A DNA stretch of 64,000 nt. Source: a virus. Positions 2,740 through 62,737 of this stretch are shown here, piece after piece. Numbering within the stretch: the stretch's first letter is position 1; every line of letters starts with the position of its first letter. The notes under the pieces are model-generated. The model was not told the DNA's origin, made no database searches, and was given only the letters and a program-made list of their open reading frames with translations. A program made the translations under genes and the position numbers. The stretch spans positions 104,883-168,882 of IMG/VR virus record IMGVR_UViG_3300020595_000009; one strand, written 5' to 3'.

Positions 2740-3102
2740 TTACTCAAACTCCAAACTGTTTGTTTCACGGTTGTAAAAGCAGTAGATGTTTTTTGCGAGC
2801 CATAGATCCACAATAGTTTCCGGATCGACTTTTTTGTTGTTTAGATACCACCCTTTGCGCCCGTTGGCATACTCAACAGCCGGACCATCTTCACGGTGAC
2901 GCTTACCGTTTAGATACCACAATTTGGCTCCGTTGGCCCACTCACAAGCCGGACCATCTTCACGGTGGCGCTTTCCGTTTAGCCACCATTCTTTGGTTCC
3001 GTTGGGATACTCACAAGCAGGGCCATCTTCACGGTGATGCTTTCCGTTTAGATACCACTCTTTGTCTCCGTTGGGATAAGTTTTACATTCAGGTTTATTC
3101 AT
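2740..3102 (-). CDS. MORN-like 22-aa repeat protein D (120 aa)
   Basis: Three HREDGPA units and the shared tail. I place the start at 3102, because MNKPECK is the conserved N-terminus of the family and this ATG overlaps the upstream stop as ATGA. The longer frame to 3174 only reads through the neighbour. It is the first of the four tandem paralogues in gene order. Confidence 0.8.
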   Translation of the reverse strand: MNKPECKTYPNGDKEWYLNGKHHREDGPACEYPNGTKEWWLNGKRHREDGPACEWANGAKLWYLNGKRHREDGPAVEYANGRKGWYLNNKKVDPETIVDLWLAKNIYCFYNRETNSLEFE

Positions 3103-3296
3103 TTTATTTCTCTTAGCAAAGCTTTGGATATATAAGGTATGTATCTCACTTCCGTCCAAGGTAGTATGATCCAATCAACACTATAATGATCTGAATCGAT
3201 TATTTTATCTACCAGCCCCATTCCATAGTACTTACTTGGTCCATTTCGATAGGCAAGTGGTAAGGAGCACATTTCTACTAAGTCACCAATTTTCAT
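3099..3296 (-). CDS. Small SH3-like 'VDW-type' protein (65 aa)
   Basis: Begins MKIGDLVEM, then YYGMGLVDKI and HYSVDWIILPW. This is the same order of short motifs as in the proteins at 568, 20389 and 20705. It is the first gene after terminator 3375-3410 and element copy 2, and is coupled to the MORN-like array by an ATGA overlap. A small beta-barrel is inferred. Confidence 0.7.
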   Translation of the reverse strand: MKIGDLVEMCSLPLAYRNGPSKYYGMGLVDKIIDSDHYSVDWIILPWTEVRYIPYISKALLREIK

Positions 3297-4188: not shown

Positions 4189-4608
4189 TTATTTCTTGTT
4201 CTGCCACTCATAAGAAACGCTGTCTTTTGTTATTGGACCACCAGCAGCCCAAGTCATACACGATCTCGCACTGTGGCATTTGAAAGAATGCATCCAACAA
4301 TAACCTAAATGGCCTTCTTTATCTTCAACAGGCTCTGAGGTTGGTCCAGGCATACATTCTAACATTCTTTGTGAGATGTCAAATGCAACACAGTTCCCAC
4401 AAAGGCTTTCTTTTGCCACCTCTTCTGTTGTGTTCCAATGATCAGCAAGTCCTTTCCAATATTCTTTATCTTCAAGGTTTAGCGGACCATACTTGATATA
4501 GTCTGCCTTGATCGCAGCGTTTCTGTTTTTTGTGTTTAGTTCTAAGTCCTGTGTTGGCTCAGGACAAGATAGAGCTGCTTTATTGTTCTTGATTGTTATC
4601 TTGATCAT
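4189..4608 (-). CDS. Cys-rich conserved phage protein (139 aa)
   Basis: The C-terminal two thirds carry ordered cysteines: CGNC, then ECMPG, GYCWMHSFKCHSARSC and a final WAAGGPI. This pattern suggests a metal or Fe-S site. I recall similar proteins in marine T4-like phages, but no function. It overlaps the stop of the nuclease-like gene at 4580 by 29 nt. Confidence 0.7.
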   Translation of the reverse strand: MIKITIKNNKAALSCPEPTQDLELNTKNRNAAIKADYIKYGPLNLEDKEYWKGLADHWNTTEEVAKESLCGNCVAFDISQRMLECMPGPTSEPVEDKEGHLGYCWMHSFKCHSARSCMTWAAGGPITKDSVSYEWQNKK

Positions 4609-5407
4609 TTTGTTCTATCTCTTTGGTCGCAAGCATTTTCCTTACGCTCTCTGGATCGTCTAGTGTATAAGGCGATGATCCTTTAAATTGTAACCTTCCC
4701 TGTACACGAATTCCCGCACCAACGACACTTGTTCCATCTTTTCTTGTTTTCGATCCAGATCTTCCAGGTCGAAGCTCAATATTGATATCACCTTCTAGTT
4801 TTGGAACTGGCAAATTTGCTGGATTTTCACCAAGGTAGAAAAGGCCAGATCCGCCAATTTGGATATAGTCAATTCCTTTTTTCTTATAGTGGTTGGTGAT
4901 GAACCTTGTTGTTCTCTTGATCTTTACGTTCAAAGGCTTAAGCAAACCAAGAGCCACTGCTTCAACCCATTTATCTTTTTCTATTGTTGCCGGGAGCTTG
5001 CTAACGCCGACAAACTCTAAAAACTTATCTAGATCCGGAATGATTGGTGTTAAAGATTCCTCCATGATGTCGATTGTATCTTCTTCAACAGATTTGCAAA
5101 CAATATCAAAGTACTTTCCGCCCTCTGTCCGATCGGGATAATAACGCAGTGATGTTCCGCCCATCTGCGCATCTTTATCAAGTTTTACTTCAATTTTGTA
5201 GATCTGATCTCCTATCTTGATGTCCGCATCGGCAGCAGCAGCAGATGCCCCTGCTCCTGATGTGATATCTCCCGAAGCGCCTACCGCATTCAAAGCTGCA
5301 ATGACTTCATTCTCGTACTCAAAGCCTCTTTGGTTTGAAGACTCTTCGATTGTGCCTTCGTTGATAAAGCCTCTCCAGTTTTCCATTATAAGTTTATGGT
5401 GCTTCAT
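4580..5407 (-). CDS. PD-(D/E)XK nuclease-like protein (275 aa)
   Basis: N-terminal helix FEYENEVIAAL is followed by ADIKIGDQIYKIEVKLD, the order expected for a PD-(D/E)XK core (Asp, then ExK). The C-terminal half has GIDYIQIGGSGLFYLG, which matches DDLIQINGLGLYKL in the protein at 11180-11980, so the two are paralogues. The N-terminus MENWRGFINE (from residue 8) is like late proteins of related phages and could be the true start. Role in DNA processing is inferred. Confidence 0.7.
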   Translation of the reverse strand: MKHHKLIMENWRGFINEGTIEESSNQRGFEYENEVIAALNAVGASGDITSGAGASAAAADADIKIGDQIYKIEVKLDKDAQMGGTSLRYYPDRTEGGKYFDIVCKSVEEDTIDIMEESLTPIIPDLDKFLEFVGVSKLPATIEKDKWVEAVALGLLKPLNVKIKRTTRFITNHYKKKGIDYIQIGGSGLFYLGENPANLPVPKLEGDINIELRPGRSGSKTRKDGTSVVGAGIRVQGRLQFKGSSPYTLDDPESVRKMLATKEIEQNDQDNNQEQ

Positions 5408-11179: not shown

Positions 11180-11980
11180 CTAGATTTCTTTAATAAGTTT
11201 ATTTGCGTCTTCTTTTTTTGATATATCCAATCTTGACATTTTGCTTCTGTCCTGATCTAAATCATCAGCACGAAAAGCAATGTTGAAAGTAAAAGAATCG
11301 CCGTGGTTTTTGATATGAAACTTTGCATCCGCTCTGAACACCAATTCACTAAAGTAGGGAATGGCTATATCAAAGCGGTCAGATAATTTATACAAGCCCA
11401 AGCCGTTGATCTGGATTAGATCATCTCCCTTGGTGTTATAATACTTTTGTAGAATGGCTGGGGATAACTCTATTCTGTGTTCCTTGCCTTCTCCAAACCA
11501 AGAATTCTGCATTGCCTCAAGTGTTTTCTTATGCCCCGGTTCCTTGTAAAGCCCAACAACTATTTGATCTCGCTCTCCTCTTTTCTTTAGGATGTTGTTT
11601 GATCCTGCGGGAGGTTTAAGATCTTTTAGGTATGGTTGAAGATACTTTACAAAGAACCGGTCCATATACTTTTTATTTTCTTTACTCTTGTCTTTGTTAA
11701 AGTTCGAGTTGTGGATCACCCATCGTTCTCTTTCTGTGTCGTAGCCGACTGTTAATTGACCGAACTCTGTATCTAACGTTGTCTTTACTTCAATTCCAAT
11801 TGGGTCTTGGTGGCCCGGAACTTCAATCACAATGTCGGACTTTACTCGATCATTCTTTGCTGTCCCGTCCTGAACAAGATACTGTGAAAAGTAAGATTCA
11901 ATCTTGTTTTCATTTTTGTATCCTGTTTCGGTGGAACGCTTGTCTTCAGTTAACAGTTTTCGAAAGATGGAATGAAGCAC
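11180..11980 (-). CDS. PD-(D/E)XK nuclease-like protein (266 aa)
   Basis: An N-terminal helix (YKNENKIESYFSQYL) precedes SDIVIEVP and IGIEVKTTL, fitting the PD-(D/E)XK order Asp...ExK. The C-terminal part shares DDLIQINGLGLYKL with the paralogue at 4580-5407. It sits directly after GroEL (3-nt gap). Likely acts on DNA; whether it is a virion protein or an enzyme of recombination or host DNA breakdown is open. Confidence 0.7.
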   Translation of the reverse strand: MLHSIFRKLLTEDKRSTETGYKNENKIESYFSQYLVQDGTAKNDRVKSDIVIEVPGHQDPIGIEVKTTLDTEFGQLTVGYDTERERWVIHNSNFNKDKSKENKKYMDRFFVKYLQPYLKDLKPPAGSNNILKKRGERDQIVVGLYKEPGHKKTLEAMQNSWFGEGKEHRIELSPAILQKYYNTKGDDLIQINGLGLYKLSDRFDIAIPYFSELVFRADAKFHIKNHGDSFTFNIAFRADDLDQDRSKMSRLDISKKEDANKLIKEI

Positions 11981-13577: not shown

Positions 13578-14246
13578 TTAGATTACTTCGTCAGCGATCC
13601 CATACTCAACAGCTTGTTCTGCTGAGATGTAATGATTTGAGTTTGACGAAAACATTTTCTTGATCTTCTTGATGGATAAGTTTGAGTTCTCGGCAACGCA
13701 GCGAACATACATATCCTGCAGGACCTTTACTTCTTCCAGTTCGTTCTCCATGTTGTGCACAGAGCCCATTGTCCCTGCGGACGCTTGGTGAAGCATAAGA
13801 CGACAGTTTCGGGCAACAAGACGCTTACCCTTTGTCCCAGCAGCTAGAATAGCTACGCCGGCAGACATTACTTTGCCTAGGCCAATAGTCTCAATGTCGA
13901 CACCACTAGACTTTGTCATGTTCATAAGGTCAATAATACCAAACATCTCTAAGACCTCTCCGCCATAAGTTGAGATGATCATACGAATGTCTTGTTCGGG
14001 TTGCAACAACCCTTCGTGTTCTGCTAACTCCTCCTCGGTAAACAACTCTGGGGTGTTCTGCCAAAGATAATAAATGCCTGATGTAACATCTGCGCACTTC
14101 TCTTCGTTGATTGCTCCAAAAACGGCTACGGTTCGGAGGTCCTTCTCGGCTGGTTGTGCTGGCAGCGAGAAATGGATTGCGCCAGGGGATTCTTCTTCTA
14201 CTGTCTCTTCATGCTCTTCGTTTAGATTGTTCTTCTTCTTCTTCAT
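13578..14246 (-). CDS. clpP: ClpP-like serine protease (222 aa)
   Basis: The ClpP fold runs from about residue 40: STYGGEVLEMFG, nucleophile Ser in GKVMSAGVAILAAG, catalytic His in LMLHQASAG, ending SAEQAVEYGIADEVI. In the usual RDxFxSA motif the catalytic Asp position reads NHYISA, so the triad Asp is Asn, as reported for Listeria ClpP1. It has an acidic N-terminal extension and no ATPase partner in this window. It may use a host Clp ATPase or act in head maturation. Confidence 0.92.
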   Translation of the reverse strand: MKKKKNNLNEEHEETVEEESPGAIHFSLPAQPAEKDLRTVAVFGAINEEKCADVTSGIYYLWQNTPELFTEEELAEHEGLLQPEQDIRMIISTYGGEVLEMFGIIDLMNMTKSSGVDIETIGLGKVMSAGVAILAAGTKGKRLVARNCRLMLHQASAGTMGSVHNMENELEEVKVLQDMYVRCVAENSNLSIKKIKKMFSSNSNHYISAEQAVEYGIADEVI

Positions 14247-15405: not shown

Positions 15406-15759
15406 CTACAAGTCAGGCATTTCTATTTCAATAATGTCAAAAATAGATCCTAACTCTTCTTCTGAAAGAGAGAAACTTTGTCTCACTTTCTTTGTTTTTT
15501 CTTTTTCCTTGCGGATCTTTTTTTCACGGGTTTTGGAAAGGTTTCCGTTGTCTTTCTTGTATTCTTCAATCAGCTTCTCTAAGAGTGATGTTTGATTTAC
15601 GAACTGGAGAATAACCCAACGAAGAAACTTTCCTTGGCCAATGCCTTCATACTTTAGTCTAATACGAAAATCAGCGTGGAGCTTTTCGCCAATAGAGAAA
15701 GTTAAGTTTTTATACTTTGGCTCATACTCTACTATGTTTGGCTTTTGATCTTCGCTCAT
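15406..15759 (-). CDS. Conserved phage protein, possible DNA-binding (117 aa)
   Basis: NLTFSIGEKLHADFRIRLKYEG, then GQGKFLRWVILQFVN, gives a beta-strand plus two helices as in ribbon-helix-helix regulators. A very basic Lys/Arg tail follows. I recall relatives in T4-like cyanophages, function unknown. It is coupled by an ATGA overlap to the IMPDH/GMPR gene. Confidence 0.65.
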   Translation of the reverse strand: MSEDQKPNIVEYEPKYKNLTFSIGEKLHADFRIRLKYEGIGQGKFLRWVILQFVNQTSLLEKLIEEYKKDNGNLSKTREKKIRKEKEKTKKVRQSFSLSEEELGSIFDIIEIEMPDL

Positions 15760-16778
15760 CGATGTAAGATGTGGGTGCTGGACTCAACTGCTGCGTTGTG
15801 GGACTGGCGAATGAATGTTGCTTTGCTTTGTAGCTCAACAATGTCTCTCGCTCCGGAATAGGAAAAGCCTGACCTCACACCAGTAAGTAGTTCTTCTACA
15901 ACATTGTATACAGAGCCTTTACAAGGAATAGTGGTAGATACGCCTTCTAAGGACGAAGTTTTTCCACGCCAAGCTTTTTGTGCTTCGGCAGATGCCATAC
16001 CACGATAAGCTTTAAAGCAGCGACCATCACGATTGCGGAAAGTTTCACTGGGCGTTTCATCAGTTCCGGCCAATAACGAACCCAACATTACAGCATCAGC
16101 GCCAGCAGCCAAAGCTTTTACAATGTCACCAGAGTTTTTGATACCGCCGTCAGCAATAAGAATGGCGCTGCGATCTGTTTGAGCACAGTCAATAATAGAC
16201 TGAAGGGTTGGAACGCCGTGGCCTGTTTGGATACGGGTTGAGCAAATACTTCCTCCACCAATGCCTACACGAATAGAGTCAGCACCCCAATCGGCCAATC
16301 GGTTGAAGCCTTCAAGCGTCGCAACATTGCCGGCCATAATGTGAACGTTCATTCCAAGCTCTCTTCGCAAGGAATCAATAGCCTCGCTTACAAGAGAATG
16401 ATCGCCGTGAGCAACATCAATACAAATAACTTTTGCTCCTGACGCATAACATTCAATGGCTCGCTCAATAAAGTCTCCACTCACACCAACTGCTGCTCCA
16501 ACAACAGAACAGTTTGGTACATCCAAGGCGTCTTCTACCTCGGCTGCTTGTTCAGCGATTGTATTGTATCTATGAACAACAGCCATTCCTCCAAGCTTAG
16601 ACATTGCTGCAGCCATTTCCCATTCACTTACTGTGTCCATCGGAGAAGCAATAATGGGAATCTCTAGATTTAGTTCATAATCCAAAGGCGTTGCTAGTGA
16701 AATTTGTTTCCTTGATATAATGTCGGAGTATTGTGGTTCCAACAAAACATCCCCAAATGTGATTGTTTGTTTATACAT
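15756..16778 (-). CDS. IMP dehydrogenase / GMP reductase family enzyme, no CBS domains
   Basis: 340 aa TIM barrel. Visible are [15 protein letters not shown], the phosphate loop and catalytic Cys in [37 protein letters not shown] and YRGMASAEA. The barrel is IMPDH-like, but the flap is short and lacks the Arg-Tyr dyad (RYFQ), which is closer to GMP reductase. It either makes XMP from IMP or returns GMP to IMP. PurA, the other IMP branch enzyme, is encoded 2 kb downstream in reading order's upstream direction (18570-19610), so the phage controls the IMP branch point. Confidence 0.88.
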
Positions 16779-18172: not shown

Positions 18173-18568
18173 TTATACCTCTGTTAGTTTGTATTTCTTT
18201 CCATCAATCTCGACAACCTTTGCGGAAAGTGTTTGGGCGCATGGGGTGCTGGGTGGCTTGGTTGGTGTGACTAGCCAGTGTTCATCTTCGGTCAGTTGTT
18301 GTCCATCTAAGAACCACATTTTGTCTCCGCTGGCCCTCTCAACAGCCGGGCCATCTTCACGGTGACGCTTTCCGTTTAGATACCATTCTTTGGTTCCGCT
18401 GGCATACTCAACAGCAGGACCATCTTCACGGTGAAGCTTGTCGTTTAGCCGCCATTCTTTGTATCCGTTGGCCCTCTCAACAGCAGGACCATCTTCACGG
18501 TGAAGCTTGCCGTTTAGGTACCACACTTTGCTTCCGTTGGACCATGCTTTTACTTTATATTCAATCAT
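18173..18568 (-). CDS. MORN-like repeat protein E (131 aa)
   Basis: Three HREDGPA units nearly identical to those of the array at 1509-3102, but with a different N-terminus (MIEYKVKAWSNG) and C-terminus (ending EIDGKKYKLTEV). The start at 18568 has GGAGG in the 3' end of purA. It shows that the repeat cassette has moved about 15 kb within the genome. Confidence 0.8.
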   Translation of the reverse strand: MIEYKVKAWSNGSKVWYLNGKLHREDGPAVERANGYKEWRLNDKLHREDGPAVEYASGTKEWYLNGKRHREDGPAVERASGDKMWFLDGQQLTEDEHWLVTPTKPPSTPCAQTLSAKVVEIDGKKYKLTEV

Positions 18569-18569
18569 T

Positions 18570-19610
18570 TTATGCTGCCTCCTGTGAAAGAATAGAATAG
18601 GGGTTGTCTGAGAAGTAAACTCGTGGAACGCCGCATTGTTCGGCAACGTTTGATACACGATGGCGGAAGTCGCTTTCCCACTCTTCGTCTCCCATTACCT
18701 CACGCATAACATCCATCTTGTTGATCACGAGGTCAGTTACACCATTCATTCTACACGATTTAGCGAGAAAGTCAAGATCAATCCAGTTTGTTTGGCGCTT
18801 TCTTCCTGTGGTTGCTCCAAACTCTTGGCCGGCCTCTTGTAGTTGTCCTAAAAGAGGATCGTCACCTTGGAAATTTTTTGCTCCAACATAAGTTTCATAA
18901 ACCTTCGCAGCACCCCAAACACGGTTGATTGCTTGTGGTGGAATACCGTTCAGAAGCGCACCAGCCGTCGTACAGTGGCTTGATGTAACATAAGGGTAAT
19001 CACCCCAGTCAATGTCAATACCAAAGCCTTGTGCGCCCTCACAGAGCACATAAGTGTTTTTGTCGCTATAAAACTCTTCGTAAAGATCAATAACCAAATC
19101 TTTCATAAAGGCCAGCTCACCTACAAAAGAGCATCCACCAGCATGTACGCCACTTCGACCATATTTATCACGATAAGCAGGACCACAACCTCTTCTAGTC
19201 GTTCCAATCTTTTCGTCTCTTTTATCTTCATTTTTATGTTCCTTTGTAATAATGTGTGCGTTTTGAGCAATGCGAAGGTTTGATACAACATCAATACCAG
19301 CCGCCTCAAGATCTTTGATTTCTTGTAGGAGGGCATAGGGGTCAATAACGCATCCGTTGCCAATAATAGATTTGATCCCAAAGAACACTCCACTAGGAAT
19401 GTGATGAGTTACAAGCTTTTGGCCTTCATGATAGATTGTATGACCGGCATTTGGACCGCCGCCAAACCTCATAACGTGAGTGTAATTGCCGTTCTTACAT
19501 AGATCGTGTGTAATTTTTCCCTTACCACAATCACCATACTGAAGCCCAACAACAACATCTGCTGTGATTTCGCCGGCTGGCTTTACGCCGCCCATTGTTT
19601 CTCTATACAT
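18570..19610 (-). CDS. purA: Adenylosuccinate synthetase (PurA-type, short form)
   Basis: 346 aa, close to the short archaeal/phage form. It has P-loop LQYGDCGKGKI, active-site His in GPNAGHTIY, GAQGFGIDIDWGDYPYVTSS, GATTGRKRQTNWID and NKMDVM. The catalytic Asp of GDEGKGK is kept (GDCGKGK); phage PurZ enzymes that make 2-aminoadenine carry Ser there. So it should convert IMP, Asp and GTP to adenylosuccinate. The start at 19610 has AAAGGAG; an in-frame ATG at 19655 lacks one. Confidence 0.93.
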   Translation of the reverse strand: MYRETMGGVKPAGEITADVVVGLQYGDCGKGKITHDLCKNGNYTHVMRFGGGPNAGHTIYHEGQKLVTHHIPSGVFFGIKSIIGNGCVIDPYALLQEIKDLEAAGIDVVSNLRIAQNAHIITKEHKNEDKRDEKIGTTRRGCGPAYRDKYGRSGVHAGGCSFVGELAFMKDLVIDLYEEFYSDKNTYVLCEGAQGFGIDIDWGDYPYVTSSHCTTAGALLNGIPPQAINRVWGAAKVYETYVGAKNFQGDDPLLGQLQEAGQEFGATTGRKRQTNWIDLDFLAKSCRMNGVTDLVINKMDVMREVMGDEEWESDFRHRVSNVAEQCGVPRVYFSDNPYSILSQEAA

Positions 19611-19656
19611 TCTCACTCCTTTTATTTCTTTTACGTTTTGGTAAGTATTTTTCATG

Positions 19657-20121
19657 TTAATAAGGGCCGTTCGGTTCTCCAACATCCTCCATCCAATGGC
19701 CGCACGCCCTTGCCCAATCATCTTGCAAGGAAATTGTGTTTTCGGCGGCCTCTCTGAACCCGTCGTCAGCGTGAACTCTATGCCAATGTTTTTTCTGCGG
19801 GTCCCACCAGAAGCCATGTTCTTTAAGCGCCTGGACCACGAGATCTCCCGGCCAATTGACAAAGGAAATATAGTCTCGCTTGTGTCTAGTGCCTGGTACG
19901 AGCCTGGTTTTAAAGTTGATGGTATTGCGTTCGCTAACTGGAATAAATCCCATTTTGCTAATAACGTCAAGCATGGAATGGTGGTGCTTCTTTGTTCTAC
20001 CTTTCTCCTTTTTAGCGGAGAGTTCATTTTTTTCGTCACAGCAGGGATTGGGGCATGATCGCCATCCGAACACCCCCGGATCAGCAAGGCATTCCCCGTC
20101 CCAATAATCATTAAGATACAT
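19657..20121 (-). CDS. Hypothetical protein with WDPxxKxWHR element (154 aa)
   Basis: An N-terminal Cys pair region (CLADPGVFGWRSCPNPCCD) may bind metal. The middle KKHHHS is followed by VQALKEHGFWWDPQKKHWHR, a pattern of small phage DNA-interacting domains. The start has AAAGGAG. Another long frame (to 20234) overlapping it is a shadow extension of purA. Confidence 0.7.
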   Translation of the reverse strand: MYLNDYWDGECLADPGVFGWRSCPNPCCDEKNELSAKKEKGRTKKHHHSMLDVISKMGFIPVSERNTINFKTRLVPGTRHKRDYISFVNWPGDLVVQALKEHGFWWDPQKKHWHRVHADDGFREAAENTISLQDDWARACGHWMEDVGEPNGPY

Positions 20122-57191: not shown

Positions 57192-58979
57192 TTATCCAAG
57201 GAAGTCCTTGCAGATAACTAGACCGTACATGTCCGGACGAACCATCTTCTTGGCGTATCGGGTCATGACACCCTTACGAGGTACGAAGTCCTCGACACCG
57301 AAGATAGTCGGAGTCACCTGGAGAGGTACGTACGGGGCGTACACGTAGCCACTTTCAAGGAAGGAAGCGCCCTTGCGACCAACTAGTACGACATTGCGTA
57401 GGAAGTAAGGGTCGACATAAACGTCAAACTTCTTGGAAAGTGAACCAACACGAACAGCGCCAATGCTACCACGGTCATCATCGTGAGTTACAGCAGCACG
57501 GAAGCCGGCGGTGAACTCAAGAAGGTTAGCCATTTCGGGGGAGACAACAACAAAGTTGGCGCCGCCACGAAGTGTCTTACGGTGGATCTGAGCGGAAACA
57601 TCATTGATTGTCTCAATGAGAGTCTCGTACCACTCTGAAACATTACCAGTGAAGTCTGCTCCGAGAAGTGACTCGTTCTGGGTTCCGTTGGCGATATCAG
57701 CACCAGTCTCACGGTCGACGAAACGACCCGGTCGACGTGACCAGTAGAATGTACCAGCAGTTGATCCCTTGACAAGGTCTTCAAGGATCTCACGGTCAAT
57801 CTCAAGAGCAACCTGCTCTGAAAGGATTGAAGTAAGCTCAACCTCTGCGTCCATGTTGTGGTATGCATTGAGGTCCTGACCAAGTTCCGGAGTCCACTTA
57901 GCCTTGAGCTTCTTGGTGACTGCGGTGACTGATACGGAATCGACCTTGATGTCGATTTCAGGGATATCAGCGTTGTTCTCAAGTCCCCATTCGGCAGCGC
58001 CTACAACGGATCCAATGCCGGAACTATCAAAGTTGTCAGCTAGAGGAATGTCAACGTGTGTTACAGCGTTGAGCGCAGTTCTAAGCTGGCCAATACCAGT
58101 TGCATCAGAAGCAGTTAGTGAGGCAGCAACAAGAAGAACATTTGCGCTATTAACAGGGTCTTGTCTAGTAAGGCGTCGAACTTGAACTGAGTTTGCACCT
58201 AATCCTAGTGGATCAGACTTGCCAGATCCTGTGATTGTAATAGCAACATAGTCGTCAAAGTTAAACTCGCCGCCGGTAAGACCAGAGATAGGAGCTGTTG
58301 CAACAACGAAGGCTGAACCTGATACAAGGTCGGCATCGAATTGAAGTAGGTTGGCTAGGTCGTAGCCTGCCGTGCCACTGAAACCGTCGGTCGCAGTTGT
58401 GAAGTCAGCAAAACCGCCATCGCCAACCGTACCTGATGCTACGGGCGTGGTTAGCCCGGCTGAAACGACTGTGCCGGTCGGTGAGGAGAAGCCGTTGTTG
58501 AGTGCGTAAGGGCCACGCTCGGCATCGATTCCGGTAAGGACAACGCCGCCTGTGATCTGTGAAGCAACTCGGCCACCGCCATAGATTGAGTCAGCTGAAG
58601 CATTTCCTAGACGCTCGCCATTGGCGTTCATACCGCCCTCGGCTGAGAAGGTGAAATCCATGAAGAAGATTAGACCTGAAGGAAGTGACATTGGCTGAAC
58701 AGAAACTAGATCCTGAGCAACAAGTGATGCGAATACACGTCGAACGAGAGGGAATGCAACTGCTGCAAAGCCTTCAACGTCGGCGCCGGCCATTGTGGAT
58801 GATTCACGAAGAAGCTCCTTGGCCTGATTTTCAAGTAGACGAGCCATCTGGTGACGCTTGTCATCTGTGTTTAGACCTTCGAGTAGTCCTGTTCGCTCCC
58901 ACTTATTAAGTAGTGCGCTTGACTCCTGGTGAAGGTCACGGGGCTGGATGCCCTCTGTGAGTGTCTTAAGTACTGACAT
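57192..58979 (-). CDS. Major capsid protein (gp23-like, 595 aa)
   Basis: FPLVRRVFASLVAQDLVSVQ and PMSLPSGLIFFMDF are the gp23 signature; the C-terminus has GKGASF-type VLVGRKGASFLESGYVYAPY and TPTIFGVEDFVPRKGVMTRY. HK97-fold shell. A cleavable N-terminal part is expected from the gp21-like protease. A strong terminator follows. Confidence 0.95.
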   Translation of the reverse strand: MSVLKTLTEGIQPRDLHQESSALLNKWERTGLLEGLNTDDKRHQMARLLENQAKELLRESSTMAGADVEGFAAVAFPLVRRVFASLVAQDLVSVQPMSLPSGLIFFMDFTFSAEGGMNANGERLGNASADSIYGGGRVASQITGGVVLTGIDAERGPYALNNGFSSPTGTVVSAGLTTPVASGTVGDGGFADFTTATDGFSGTAGYDLANLLQFDADLVSGSAFVVATAPISGLTGGEFNFDDYVAITITGSGKSDPLGLGANSVQVRRLTRQDPVNSANVLLVAASLTASDATGIGQLRTALNAVTHVDIPLADNFDSSGIGSVVGAAEWGLENNADIPEIDIKVDSVSVTAVTKKLKAKWTPELGQDLNAYHNMDAEVELTSILSEQVALEIDREILEDLVKGSTAGTFYWSRRPGRFVDRETGADIANGTQNESLLGADFTGNVSEWYETLIETINDVSAQIHRKTLRGGANFVVVSPEMANLLEFTAGFRAAVTHDDDRGSIGAVRVGSLSKKFDVYVDPYFLRNVVLVGRKGASFLESGYVYAPYVPLQVTPTIFGVEDFVPRKGVMTRYAKKMVRPDMYGLVICKDFLG

Positions 58980-59000: not shown

Positions 59001-60074
59001 TTAAAGTATGCCTGCTAGTCTCTTCATACGAAGAACGTCGCTTGACTCGCTTATTGTTTGTTTTTTTGCGGAGCGAGCCACAAGTGTTCTAACCTTTAGC
59101 GCTTCAGTCAAGTTTTCTGGGCCAGCATTCTTTGCAGGTTCAGACGAAACCGTTTCACATAGAGTTTCAAACACAGCTTTGACCTTATCGGTCGTGTCGG
59201 CCCGGTTGATTGTTTCGACAATTTTACTTTTTTGCCGCTCATTCAAGGAGTTATCTATCAGGGCTTTGTTTGTATAAAACAGTTTTGTGTTTACGAGATG
59301 AGACTCTGAAAGCTTATTCTGTAAGCTCTCAACCAATACTGCTGTATTCTTTATTACATTGTTTTTTTCTTTTATTTCTTTTTCTAAACTGTTCTTGTTC
59401 TCGGTGAGTTCCAAGACAGCCTTCTTAAATGTGGCGTTGTCTTCTTCAAGATCAGTTGAGTGCATTCGGGCTAGCTCAAGCTCCTGCTCAAAGAATATTT
59501 GCTTGTCGGGACGTCCTGCCCAGCCACCTTTTTGTGCTGAAGTATCAACGGTAAGTTTTTCCATGAGGCCAAGAAGATCGTCTTCGGAAATGTCGATCTC
59601 TTCGGCTATAGCATCTGGCTCGCCAACACCGTCTTCTATTTCTACTCCGGAGTCCTCAAGTTTGTCTAGGTCGATTGTGACCATTTCTTCGTCGCCATCT
59701 TCCTCGCCCATTTTCGCTACTTTTACGGCGAGTTGGTCAAGAACGTTTTGGGCTTGTTCGATTGAGTCAGAAACGTCGTCAATCATTTGCTCGGCTTCTT
59801 CTTTTTCGTCGGCCGGCTTGGCTTCATAAGACATTGGTAGATCGTCTTCGATCTCGCTTGTCTCTTCGTCACCATCAAGGTCTAGAACTTCAGCTTCCGC
59901 TTCGGCTCCAAGATCTCCTGCTTCCATTTCTTCTTCGTCGTCCTGCTCTAAAAGGCGGTCGACAGCTTCTTTGATTTGTGATGAATATTTCTCAAGAACC
60001 TCTGCTTCGGCGTTTGCTTTTGCAACCTCACGAAGGTCTTTTGCATCTACGATGGCTTGTTCAAGCATTGACAT
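59001..60074 (-). CDS. Prohead scaffold/core protein (gp22-like, 357 aa)
   Basis: Very acidic middle (residues about 45-190) and coiled-coil second half (KAVLELTENKNSLEKEIKEK), ending in LRMKRLAGIL. Located directly before the capsid gene, as gene 22 in T4. Late promoter motif upstream. It should be degraded by the prohead protease. Confidence 0.88.
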   Translation of the reverse strand: MSMLEQAIVDAKDLREVAKANAEAEVLEKYSSQIKEAVDRLLEQDDEEEMEAGDLGAEAEAEVLDLDGDEETSEIEDDLPMSYEAKPADEKEEAEQMIDDVSDSIEQAQNVLDQLAVKVAKMGEEDGDEEMVTIDLDKLEDSGVEIEDGVGEPDAIAEEIDISEDDLLGLMEKLTVDTSAQKGGWAGRPDKQIFFEQELELARMHSTDLEEDNATFKKAVLELTENKNSLEKEIKEKNNVIKNTAVLVESLQNKLSESHLVNTKLFYTNKALIDNSLNERQKSKIVETINRADTTDKVKAVFETLCETVSSEPAKNAGPENLTEALKVRTLVARSAKKQTISESSDVLRMKRLAGIL

Positions 60075-60108
60075 TAACTAACTCCTTAATAAAATATAAT
60101 ACCACTTA

Positions 60109-60116
60109 TAAATAGT
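60109..60116 (-). promoter_or_regulatory. Late promoter motif
   Basis: ACTATTTA (context GCACTATTTATAAGTG), 35 nt before the scaffold start. Confidence 0.65.
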
Positions 60117-60167: not shown

Positions 60168-60572
60168 TTATCCTACGCCGGCAGAACCTGACCAGTTGTT
60201 GCTTAGATCGCTTCCGGCGATTGTTGTTAGGCCAGCACGAATCTCATAATCCACGGTTCCAGACGATCCGTTTCTCTGTAGGAACAAAGATGTTACACGC
60301 CAATCGTAAATTTCACTTGTCCCAGCTGAATGTAGAATATAGTTAGTGCCGGCCGGGGAAGGGCTTTTTCTAATCCCTAGAGATGAAAACCCTATTCTTA
60401 AATCTGCAGAACCGGCCGCTGTAAAAATTTCTATAAAGTTAGTTACATTTGGGAAAGCTATTTCAACTATAGTATTGTTGGTAATTTGGTTGCCCTTTAA
60501 CAAGTAAGGTATTGAGCTTACTTGATAAGAAGCAGAGTTTCCTAACCCACTTCTATACTGAAAAACACTCAT
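60168..60572 (-). CDS. Decoration-like virion protein, copy 2 (134 aa)
   Basis: Paralogue of the next upstream gene: shared MSVFQY, GLGNSASYQVSSIPY, IGFSSLGI, a trypt-rich middle and end LSNNWSGSAGVG. Similar small proteins occur in marine T4-like phages beside the capsid genes. Head decoration is a reasonable inference. Confidence 0.75.
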   Translation of the reverse strand: MSVFQYRSGLGNSASYQVSSIPYLLKGNQITNNTIVEIAFPNVTNFIEIFTAAGSADLRIGFSSLGIRKSPSPAGTNYILHSAGTSEIYDWRVTSLFLQRNGSSGTVDYEIRAGLTTIAGSDLSNNWSGSAGVG

Positions 60573-60573
60573 C

Positions 60574-60963
60574 TTATCCTACTCCTACCGATCCAGACCA
60601 GTTATTGGTTAGTTCTAGATCTGAAACTGTTGTTAGTCCAGCGTGAATTTCTATGGGCACAGAGGTAGCGCCGCCGCTAGCCTTTATAAAGACACTTGAA
60701 ACTCTCCAATAATATATGACAGATTCACTGTTTGCAGCAATTGTAAAATAATTGCTACTAGCGCTTATACCCAAGGATGAAAAGCCTACATCCAAAGTTC
60801 TACTGCCATGGTTGTTAACAATTTTTATAAATTTTGTAACTTGCGGAAAAGTAATTTGAGTTATAGTCCCTGCTGTTATATTCTGACTTATAATAAAAGG
60901 TATTGCACTTACTTGGTATGCCGAAGAATTTCCTAGGCCTGTTTTGTATTGAAAAACGCTCAT
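60574..60963 (-). CDS. Decoration-like virion protein, copy 1 (129 aa)
   Basis: Shares start (MSVFQYKTGLGNSSAYQVSA), VGFSSLGI and end (LTNNWSGSVGVG) with the adjacent gene, so the pair is a tandem duplication with diverged centres. It lies 1 nt from its paralogue, in the head gene block. Confidence 0.75.
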   Translation of the reverse strand: MSVFQYKTGLGNSSAYQVSAIPFIISQNITAGTITQITFPQVTKFIKIVNNHGSRTLDVGFSSLGISASSNYFTIAANSESVIYYWRVSSVFIKASGGATSVPIEIHAGLTTVSDLELTNNWSGSVGVG

Positions 60964-60979
60964 TAATTATCTCCTAAAG

Positions 60980-61306
60980 TTAAGAATTATCTTGCGCTTC
61001 TTCAAGCTGCCTTCTTACTTTTTCTTTTTCTTGTTTTCTCTTCTTTCTTCGCTTTTCTTCGCTGCGAATTTCCGAAGGTTTTCTGTAATACTGTCTTTCT
61101 CTGTGGTTCTCAAGGACACGATCTTTCTTTAGCATCCTTTCTAGGACTCTGTATGCCTTCATGACATCTCCGTTCCTTACTTCCACTTGGTATGGCTCAA
61201 TTCCGTCTAGGGCATTGATTTTCTTTCCATACTTCTTTCTTTTCTTGTCAAGTTTTCGATCGTATTCTTCGAAATTTCCTTTACTTGACTTGTTGTACTT
61301 TCTCAT
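60980..61306 (-). CDS. bS21-like ribosomal protein (108 aa)
   Basis: The C-terminal 70 residues match bS21: VEVRNGDVMKAYRVLERMLK, then ENHRERQYYRKPSEIRSEEK and Lys/Arg tail. The N-terminal 35 residues are an extra basic extension. bS21 binds near the anti-Shine-Dalgarno; phage copies are known in pelagiphages and huge phages and may bias translation. It is located in the late head operon. Confidence 0.75.
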   Translation of the reverse strand: MRKYNKSSKGNFEEYDRKLDKKRKKYGKKINALDGIEPYQVEVRNGDVMKAYRVLERMLKKDRVLENHRERQYYRKPSEIRSEEKRRKKRKQEKEKVRRQLEEAQDNS

Positions 61307-61313
61307 TGGTCTC

Positions 61314-61706
61314 CTATAGTCCGAAAGCTGATAAATCTACACCGGAGTCATTAGGATCTGAGTCCCTTAGAGCACCGAATTTTTCTTGTTGCGAGGAAGG
61401 TGCGGCTGCTAACGGCTCCGTTCCTTCAAAAATGTTCACGCCGCCAAAGTTGCCTGCGCCGCCAATTGAGTCCAAGAGTCGTTTCCTGGTTTCGTTGATG
61501 TTTTTCTTTGGCTTGGCTTTTTGTGCTTTTTTCATAAACTTACGAATAGGTTCTTCATCTCTGCTCTCAGTTATAGTCGAGACAGAGACGCCTTGGACTG
61601 ATTCTTTGATTATGTGAGCAAGAACTCCTGGCTCTTCCATAATCACTTCTTTTACACACTCTTTAATAAGAGGCTTCAAGATCTTTGCGAGTTCATCTTT
61701 ATTCAT
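61314..61706 (-). CDS. Prohead core-associated protein (130 aa)
   Basis: LAKILKPLIKECVKEVIMEE followed by KKNINETRKRLLDSIG and FGGVNIFEGTEPL. It lies between protease and bS21-like gene with TAATG coupling. Likely head component by context. Confidence 0.65.
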   Translation of the reverse strand: MNKDELAKILKPLIKECVKEVIMEEPGVLAHIIKESVQGVSVSTITESRDEEPIRKFMKKAQKAKPKKNINETRKRLLDSIGGAGNFGGVNIFEGTEPLAAAPSSQQEKFGALRDSDPNDSGVDLSAFGL

Positions 61707-62329
61707 TATAGTCCTACTAGGTCGTAAATTTTCGAAAGTATTATTTGTTCTCTGGTGTTGTCCAAAGCGGTTCTTGTAAGGTCCTCGTTCATATAAGAAG
61801 TTCTTGTGGGGCCAACAAAAGCACCTGATGTTGATGGCTCCTGAACTACGTCAAAACAAATAAGCTGGAAATCTTCATTTACCATTGTTCCTTCACGTGA
61901 TTCACGAACTGAGCCTAAACCTCTTGATGAGATGCCGATTTTAACACCGGCATTGACCAAACCCTTGAGTATGTCTCCGGAGGGCGTTGGAAGAACTTCT
62001 AACTTACCCATTACCTTATTGCCGTCCATCCAAATGTCTGTTACTAGGTGTGAAACGTTCTTAAGATTAACAACTGAATCGTCCGGATGGTCAAGTTCGC
62101 CAACCGATCGTCTTTCAGCCACTACTTTTTTATAATTATCAACTTCTCTTCGTAGTGTTCTTTCCGGATACACACGACCATTGCCGTTCTTTTCTCCGTA
62201 TTTTTGTAAAACACCGGTAAGAATAGTGGCGCCTTCGTTGATTCTAATCTTTTCGCCTTCTGTTAGAAAGTCTTGACAGACCCCACCATCACAAAGCTCA
62301 TAAAACTCTCTCAATAATTGTTTACGCAT
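61706..62329 (-). CDS. Prohead maturation protease (gp21-like, 207 aa)
   Basis: GVLQKYGEKNGNGRVYPERT, catalytic His in SVGELDHPDDS and nucleophile Ser in VKIGISSRGLGSV, then FDVVQEPSTSGAFV. This is the herpes-protease-like fold of T4 gp21. It cleaves capsid and core proteins. It is upstream of scaffold and capsid genes. Confidence 0.93.
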   Translation of the reverse strand: MRKQLLREFYELCDGGVCQDFLTEGEKIRINEGATILTGVLQKYGEKNGNGRVYPERTLRREVDNYKKVVAERRSVGELDHPDDSVVNLKNVSHLVTDIWMDGNKVMGKLEVLPTPSGDILKGLVNAGVKIGISSRGLGSVRESREGTMVNEDFQLICFDVVQEPSTSGAFVGPTRTSYMNEDLTRTALDNTREQIILSKIYDLVGL

Positions 62330-62442
62330 CTAAATTTCCTTTGGCGGGCGTCACCCGCTCGGTTCAAGACCCTTTGCAGCAGCGACGAACCGGCTGTAGA
62401 GCCCATTTTTGTGTCCAAGGCATAATAATCTCCATTCTTTTA

Positions 62443-62450
62443 TAAATAGT
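62443..62450 (-). promoter_or_regulatory. Late promoter motif
   Basis: ACTATTTA (context AGACTATTTATAAAAG), 114 nt before the protease start. The 5' leader contains a GCGGG/CCCGC hairpin and a possible 19-codon ORF. Confidence 0.6.
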
Positions 62451-62470: not shown

Positions 62471-62698
62471 TTAAGTAAAAAGAAGAGTATTAATCATTTC
62501 AACTAGTTCACCAATGGCTTCGGCGGCTTCGTTAAGCTCGTTTTCGCCGGCGCCAACGATAAGGACTTCTTGATTTAGGTATTCTAACTTATCTTTTATT
62601 GTAGCAAGAAGTCCTTCGGGCGTCATGCGACGCTCGTTCATCGCAGCGGAAAGCTCTTCTTTGATAATCTCTACAAGCTTTGTTTTTGTGGTTTTCAT
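62471..62698 (-). CDS. Small late protein (75 aa)
   Basis: KLVEIIKEELSAAMNERRMT, then LLATIKDKLEYLNQEVL and an acidic helix. Late promoter motif 32 nt upstream, AAGGAG start. I recall similar short head-operon proteins in marine phages. Confidence 0.7.
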   Translation of the reverse strand: MKTTKTKLVEIIKEELSAAMNERRMTPEGLLATIKDKLEYLNQEVLIVGAGENELNEAAEAIGELVEMINTLLFT

Positions 62699-62729
62699 TT
62701 AATTCTCCTTTAAAATGTTTCTTGCCTTA

Positions 62730-62737
62730 TAAATAGT
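62730..62737 (-). promoter_or_regulatory. Late promoter motif
   Basis: ACTATTTA (context ACACTATTTATAAGG), 32 nt before the start at 62698. Confidence 0.65.

Follow-up and report, generated by a model that had tools for sequence, protein, structure and literature searches.

Phage bS21 proteins described so far

bS21 is the ribosomal protein most commonly carried by viruses. In large myophages of freshwater Bacteroidetes (clades a to e), the bS21 gene is found by gp21 and the major capsid protein (MCP) gene, close to prohead protease, portal and capsid genes, and is expressed with the structural genes, late-stage expression being proposed (Chen et al. 2022, PMC9723584). The prohead protease (310) and the MCP (154) are frequent neighbours across 900 published bS21 phages. 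The same study proposed that bS21 favours late phage mRNA and named virion packaging as a possibility. The late-translation interpretation of phage bS21 is already published there.

A second type is represented by pelagiphage HTVC008M, whose bS21 enters E. coli ribosomes and lowered E. coli in vitro translation to about 5% (Mizuno et al. 2019, PMC6375957). Incorporation, demonstrated for this protein only, therefore need not mean better translation. Proteins of this type occur in T4-like marine myophages, measure about 67 aa and carry a YYRKPSEI-type core motif in many marine relatives. Their genes lie by CobS and Hsp20 genes and the capsid gene is distant.

Here, a 64,000-nucleotide stretch of viral DNA (the window) was analysed. 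It is the final 64 kb of a 168,882-bp IMG/VR record of an uncultured T4-like myophage. In the phages of Chen et al. the bS21 gene and the structural genes are on different strands, bS21 having a co-expressed opposite-strand neighbour, and the hosts are Bacteroidetes. In the window, by contrast, bS21 lies within the head cluster and shares its strand, follows a small gene (orf130), carries an N-terminal extension and belongs to a genome with strong Shine-Dalgarno use. Because it is on the structural-gene strand, it does not belong to one of the clades of PMC9723584 as described. HTVC008M-type bS21 shares the core motif but lacks the extension. Cellular and mitochondrial bS21 proteins are alike in core domain and motif and give the best PDB sequence and fold matches, but they lack the N-extension and their context is chromosomal.

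A cultured phage, Microcystis phage Mel-JY01 (PP395634), has its bS21, annotated RpsU, in the matching slot: gp21 is followed by a single small gene, then bS21, the scaffold position and the capsid gene. Its bS21 has 75 aa and lacks the extension, and the preceding 154-aa protein is not recognisably orf130. Flavobacterium phage immuto and phage C48C1 have no bS21 at the gp21-capsid slot. A tblastn search of deposited phages with the window bS21 returned nothing, whereas a pelagiphage query recovered the known cases; the blank result is probably due to the short, diverged domain.

The bS21 gene lies within a head gene cluster

On the minus strand the gene order is orf143 (275 aa in relatives), orf178, orf89, orf75, gp21, orf130, bS21, a paralogue pair, scaffold, gp23, and neck, sheath and tube genes. 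From the gp21 protease through the gp23 capsid gene, bS21 included, the genes are consecutive on a single strand. The features of this region are the following.

61706..62329, minus strand: gp21-type prohead core serine protease (PF03420, E = 3.3e-28; phrog_207)
61314..61706, minus strand: orf130, 130 aa, invariably upstream of bS21 and a possible partner, matching no Pfam or PHROGs family
61310..61315, minus strand: Shine-Dalgarno sequence AGGAGA of bS21, overlapping the orf130 stop codon
60980..61306, minus strand: phage bS21 gene, ATG start, 108 aa, net charge about +16
61190..61306, minus strand: N-terminal basic extension of bS21, residues 1-39, in the window's clade only, under purifying selection
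61031..61189, minus strand: bS21 core domain, residues 40-92, with RQYYRKPS (PF01165 match, motif conservation)
60574..60963, minus strand: 129-aa protein encoded after bS21, without a family match, paralogous to the 134-aa protein, variable in relatives
60168..60572, minus strand: 134-aa paralogue of the 129-aa protein, no family
59001..60074, minus strand: putative gp22-type prohead scaffold, so called only from its place between gp21 and gp23 and its composition, no family match
57192..58979, minus strand: gp23-type major capsid protein (PF07068, E = 2.1e-71)

The portal and terminase genes are at the opposite end of the record. The gp21 and capsid proteins are less than 60% identical to those of any deposited phage, the nearest including Mel-JY01 and immuto.

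The open reading frame at 60980-61306 is bS21. A preliminary description, made from the letters alone, had recognised a bS21 pattern with RQYYRKP (residues 71-77), and profile and structure searches agree with it. PF01165 (Ribosomal_S21) matches residues 40-92 with E = 3.1e-9 and 36.9 bits, above the curated gathering cut-off of 27 bits. The PHROGs label is ribosomal protein S21 (E = 7e-5), and the phmmer hits in the PDB were bS21 chains of mitochondria and bacteria (best E = 8e-6). The AlphaFold model has a mean pLDDT of 78, with the core at about 85-92. It predicts short helices (48-61 and 64-72) followed by a long C-terminal helix (77-107), and a less certain helix at 13-26 in the extension. 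Its best PDB fold matches are human mitoribosomal bS21, with a probability of 1.00 and a TM-score to the target of about 0.6; the fold-match E-value is just 2e-2 for this very small protein. Orthologues with 61-100% identity and identical neighbours are present on other contigs, and dN/dS is about 0.1-0.16, with 0.13-0.16 against the two closest relatives. The reading frame is therefore not a chance one. A second bS21 was not found in the 168,882-bp record.

Among 99 head-linked bS21 proteins, the aromatic, K and S positions of the core motif are mostly retained, and the proline is missing in about a quarter. This loss counts against the reading as a functional bS21, although the window copy keeps the full motif and its core is under purifying selection.

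A clade-specific N-terminal extension

The extra basic N-terminus that had been remarked upon is real. It covers about 39 residues and is conserved in the window's clade (loci L002-L014), where it is about as conserved as the core. The pN values of extension and core are 0.021 and 0.061 with L007, 0.117 and 0.202 with L010, and 0.152 and 0.260 with L013. In most pairs the extension changes no faster than the core, L011 being the exception. The extension is under purifying selection. Most other phage bS21 proteins lack it, and a few bear different basic N-termini.

A promoter-like motif points to late expression

The window contains 9 copies of the octamer TATTTATA, as compared to 1.8 expected. 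Over the whole record there are 18 copies on the coding strand and 5 on the other strand. Among the coding-strand copies, 12 of 18 lie at most 250 nt upstream of a gene start, 10 of these at 28-48 nt. The motif precedes the scaffold gene, large structural-type genes, the Hsp20 gene and several proteins sharing an N-terminal motif. Three copies, all late-promoter-like, lie around the head genes.

62728..62735, minus strand: TATTTATA before orf75
62441..62448, minus strand: TATTTATA at 119 nt upstream of gp21, putative promoter for the gp21-orf130-bS21 operon
60107..60114, minus strand: TATTTATA, 40 nt before the scaffold gene

The T4 late promoter sequence is TATAAATA. Coding-strand TATTTATA (10162-62735 in the window, and in the whole record) is a candidate late promoter that differs from it.

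Across related contigs, CTATTTATA precedes gp21 and gp22, whereas it was found within 150 nt of the bS21 start in none of 54 bS21 upstream regions, one mismatch being allowed. A gp55-like late sigma factor is also present in the record (phrog_234, E = 5e-4), and the coding strand showed no terminator-like site between 56.5 and 64 kb. In the simplest reading, bS21 would be transcribed from the promoter located 119 nt before gp21. The same-strand cluster, the presence of CTATTTATA upstream of gp21 and gp22 and its absence upstream of bS21, and the sigma factor together give good support to the prediction that bS21 is expressed late. In the late head operon put forward earlier, the grouping with head genes on the same strand thus stands as observed, while lateness is deduced from the motif and the gene cluster. 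Neither a same-strand head operon with such a motif nor the conserved bS21 N-extension was found described in open-licence papers.

orf130 constantly precedes bS21

We searched IMG/VR with three different queries. The bS21 query gave 44 loci. In the window's clade the whole neighbourhood is conserved, whereas the pelagiphage-like bS21 genes lie by Hsp20 and CobS genes, far from the capsid gene. With the gp21 query, 65 loci were obtained, and bS21 follows orf130 in all 36 distinct cases with room for it. The orf130 query, in which neither bS21 nor gp21 was used, returned at least 567 relatives; among the best 80 of these, bS21 is directly downstream in 61 of the 61 distinct ones with room. When loci were combined, bS21 came directly after orf130 in 93/93 distinct loci, and the two genes overlap in 41. 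gp21, on the other hand, adjoins orf130 in just 66 of 91 distinct loci, and the orf130-bS21 order holds also where other genes intervene between gp21 and orf130. PF01165 recovered 43/43 relatives at E-values up to 1, and 56/59 at E-values up to 0.01. By BLAST, orf130 seemed to stand without bS21 at L065, L070, L083 and L086, but a profile search revealed bS21 at all four. The converse does not hold: at L042, L044 and L045 a head-linked bS21 lies just before the scaffold gene and orf130 was undetected, so that orf130 always has bS21 but not the reverse. Distances between bS21 proteins correlate with those of orf130 (Mantel r = 0.91) more than with those of gp21 (0.80).

The orf130 family is absent from Pfam and PHROGs, and orf130 could not be equated with a known prohead protein. 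Two of its members matched nothing in 50,697 deposited phages, and the predicted structure of orf130 is a low-confidence model. No report of an orf130-like partner was found in open-licence papers. The constant pairing of orf130 with bS21, as seen in gene order, appears to be new.

It has been speculated that phages with bS21 could encode a factor that helps its exchange (PMC9976891), which makes orf130 worth testing. orf130 and bS21 could be a two-part unit acting together late, in which orf130 would load bS21, expel the host copy or tie bS21 to the prohead assembly site. The unbroken order in 93 loci, the overlaps, the orf130-based search, the looser attachment of gp21 and the closer tracking of bS21 distances speak for it. 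However, gene neighbourhood alone shows no contact between the two proteins, and both could simply be late genes. In addition, the Mel-JY01 bS21 sits in its slot behind a protein not recognisably orf130, three head-linked loci have no detected orf130, and the orf130 model is of low confidence. We consider such a unit unlikely, though it is the alternative that survives best. It is likewise only tentatively, and with a little less doubt, that we raise the wider proposal from gene order: orf130 would be a new phage protein family serving as an exchange, loading or localisation factor for bS21, and the cassette would be a self-contained means of re-programming ribosomes late in infection, used across a large T4-like lineage of uncultured phages.

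A candidate head-targeting motif and bS21

Six otherwise different proteins share an N-terminal KITKxxLxxIIKEEL, and most of them lie behind TATTTATA.

62471-62698 of the window; 4511-5113, 79154-80305, 80409-80669, 83457-83852 and 83936-84388 of the record: KITKxxLxxIIKEEL proteins

The motif is absent elsewhere in 51,866 residues and never appeared in shuffles. A looser version is present in 16 of 37 orf130 members. We infer that it is a candidate capsid-targeting sequence, possibly cut by gp21.

A virion role had been offered for bS21, and the motifs lend it no support. bS21 could have become an internal head protein or an injected effector, a basic protein packaged with DNA in the prohead and delivered to the next cell. 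Its gene sits between those of the protease and the scaffold, its net charge is +16, and packaging was considered by Chen et al. 2022 (PMC9723584). Against this, the motif of the candidate head-targeted proteins is found in 0 of 41 bS21 proteins, no conserved gp21-like cleavage site was seen in bS21 by inspection, and the ribosomal core motif is retained. Packaging by means of a capsid-targeting sequence or gp21 cleavage was accordingly set aside, and a head or injected role in general is improbable.

Translation signals and the host

Shine-Dalgarno duplexes stronger than -4 kcal/mol were predicted at 65% of 69 minus-strand starts as compared to 14% of 282 internal ATGs. The host is therefore likely to use Shine-Dalgarno sites, and a Bacteroidetes-type host ignoring them is unlikely. 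Late-gene use of these sites was also compared, on the phage side, with that of other genes. With a crude gene tiling, strong sites were found at 77% of starts in the late block and 77% in the rest when the best nearby start was taken, and at 77% and 60% with the first start. As Shine-Dalgarno strength shows no clear difference between late genes and the rest, a special late-gene initiation signal was discarded.

The phage tmRNA tag and bS21 itself were used to look for the host. A phage tmRNA (RF00023, 104 bits, predicted tag ANNNVEFDSVALAA) is encoded outside the window (L119:11196-11506, minus strand; about 69,696-70,006 of the record), and an exact match of the tag is absent from the genome collection. 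The nearest chromosomal bS21 copies, from one Nitrospirota MAG and one Myxococcota MAG, share just 39-44% identity with it across the matched part, in a poorly resolved tree. Besides the tmRNA and bS21, this phage genome has genes for a ClpP-like protease (window 13578-14246) and a GroEL-like chaperonin. Separately, a Planctomycetota MAG contig (L122, NYSS01000132.1) has a pelagiphage-type bS21 behind a gene that is, by sequence, that of a CobS-like ATPase; given these two genes, it has the appearance of a phage contig placed in a bacterial bin.

Other genes in the record

A large family of tandem paralogues has repeats like YPNGxKxWYLNGKxHREDGPA, with a weak MORN_2 match below the cut-off.

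1509-1940, 2237-2737, 2740-3174 and 18173-18658 of the window; about 87.8-89.0, 92.4-95.0 and 100.1-102.3 kb of the record: paralogues of this type

Two phrog_26930 proteins (a function-unannotated PHROG; window 4580-5407 and 11180-11980) both show, by eye, an EVK motif of the kind seen in restriction-type nucleases. The window further encodes enzymes of the IMP dehydrogenase type (15756-16778) and the adenylosuccinate synthetase type (18570-19700), which may or may not belong to an altered purine nucleotide pathway.

Proposed function

We favour a functional phage bS21 that replaces host bS21 in the 30S subunit late in infection and re-programs the ribosome, to which we give a probability of roughly 0.6. 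This reading is based on the family and fold match, the conserved motif, dN/dS, the position in the head operon, the late-promoter-like motif, the sigma factor, the strong Shine-Dalgarno sites of late genes and the literature. Homology to bS21, the predicted fold, purifying selection, gene position and the motif evidence for a late operon come from the analysis itself, and ribosome entry, replacement of the host protein, late-mRNA selectivity and the role of the extension are predictions. Phage bS21 would be made late alongside the prohead protease and orf130, and would enter host 30S subunits, displacing the loosely held host bS21. Initiation would then be favoured on late phage mRNAs, which are abundant and have Shine-Dalgarno sites of the ordinary kind. 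Together with the core, the long C-terminal helix would occupy the normal position of bS21 next to the anti-Shine-Dalgarno, and the clade-specific basic N-extension may reach rRNA, mRNA or a partner, giving the phage version its edge. A preference for late mRNA is weakened by Shine-Dalgarno strength failing to set late genes apart. The late translation control of the preliminary description is plausible, with identity and head grouping supported, but it is not new, being the thesis of PMC9723584.

That bS21 has left the ribosome and now uses its fold as an RNA-binding regulator, acting for example on late phage mRNA or in shutting off host translation, would fit the missing proline in about a quarter of head-linked relatives, the added extension and the inactivity of E. 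coli ribosomes carrying HTVC008M bS21 (PMC6375957), but it is very improbable for a window copy with its full core motif and a core under purifying selection.

Overall, the tie of bS21 to head genes and its constant small neighbour provide a specific protein pair that could be tested for ribosome exchange, and the extension, specific to this clade, is open to removal. Set against the Hsp20-linked bS21 of pelagiphages, it separates two genomic settings of this protein within T4-like phages.
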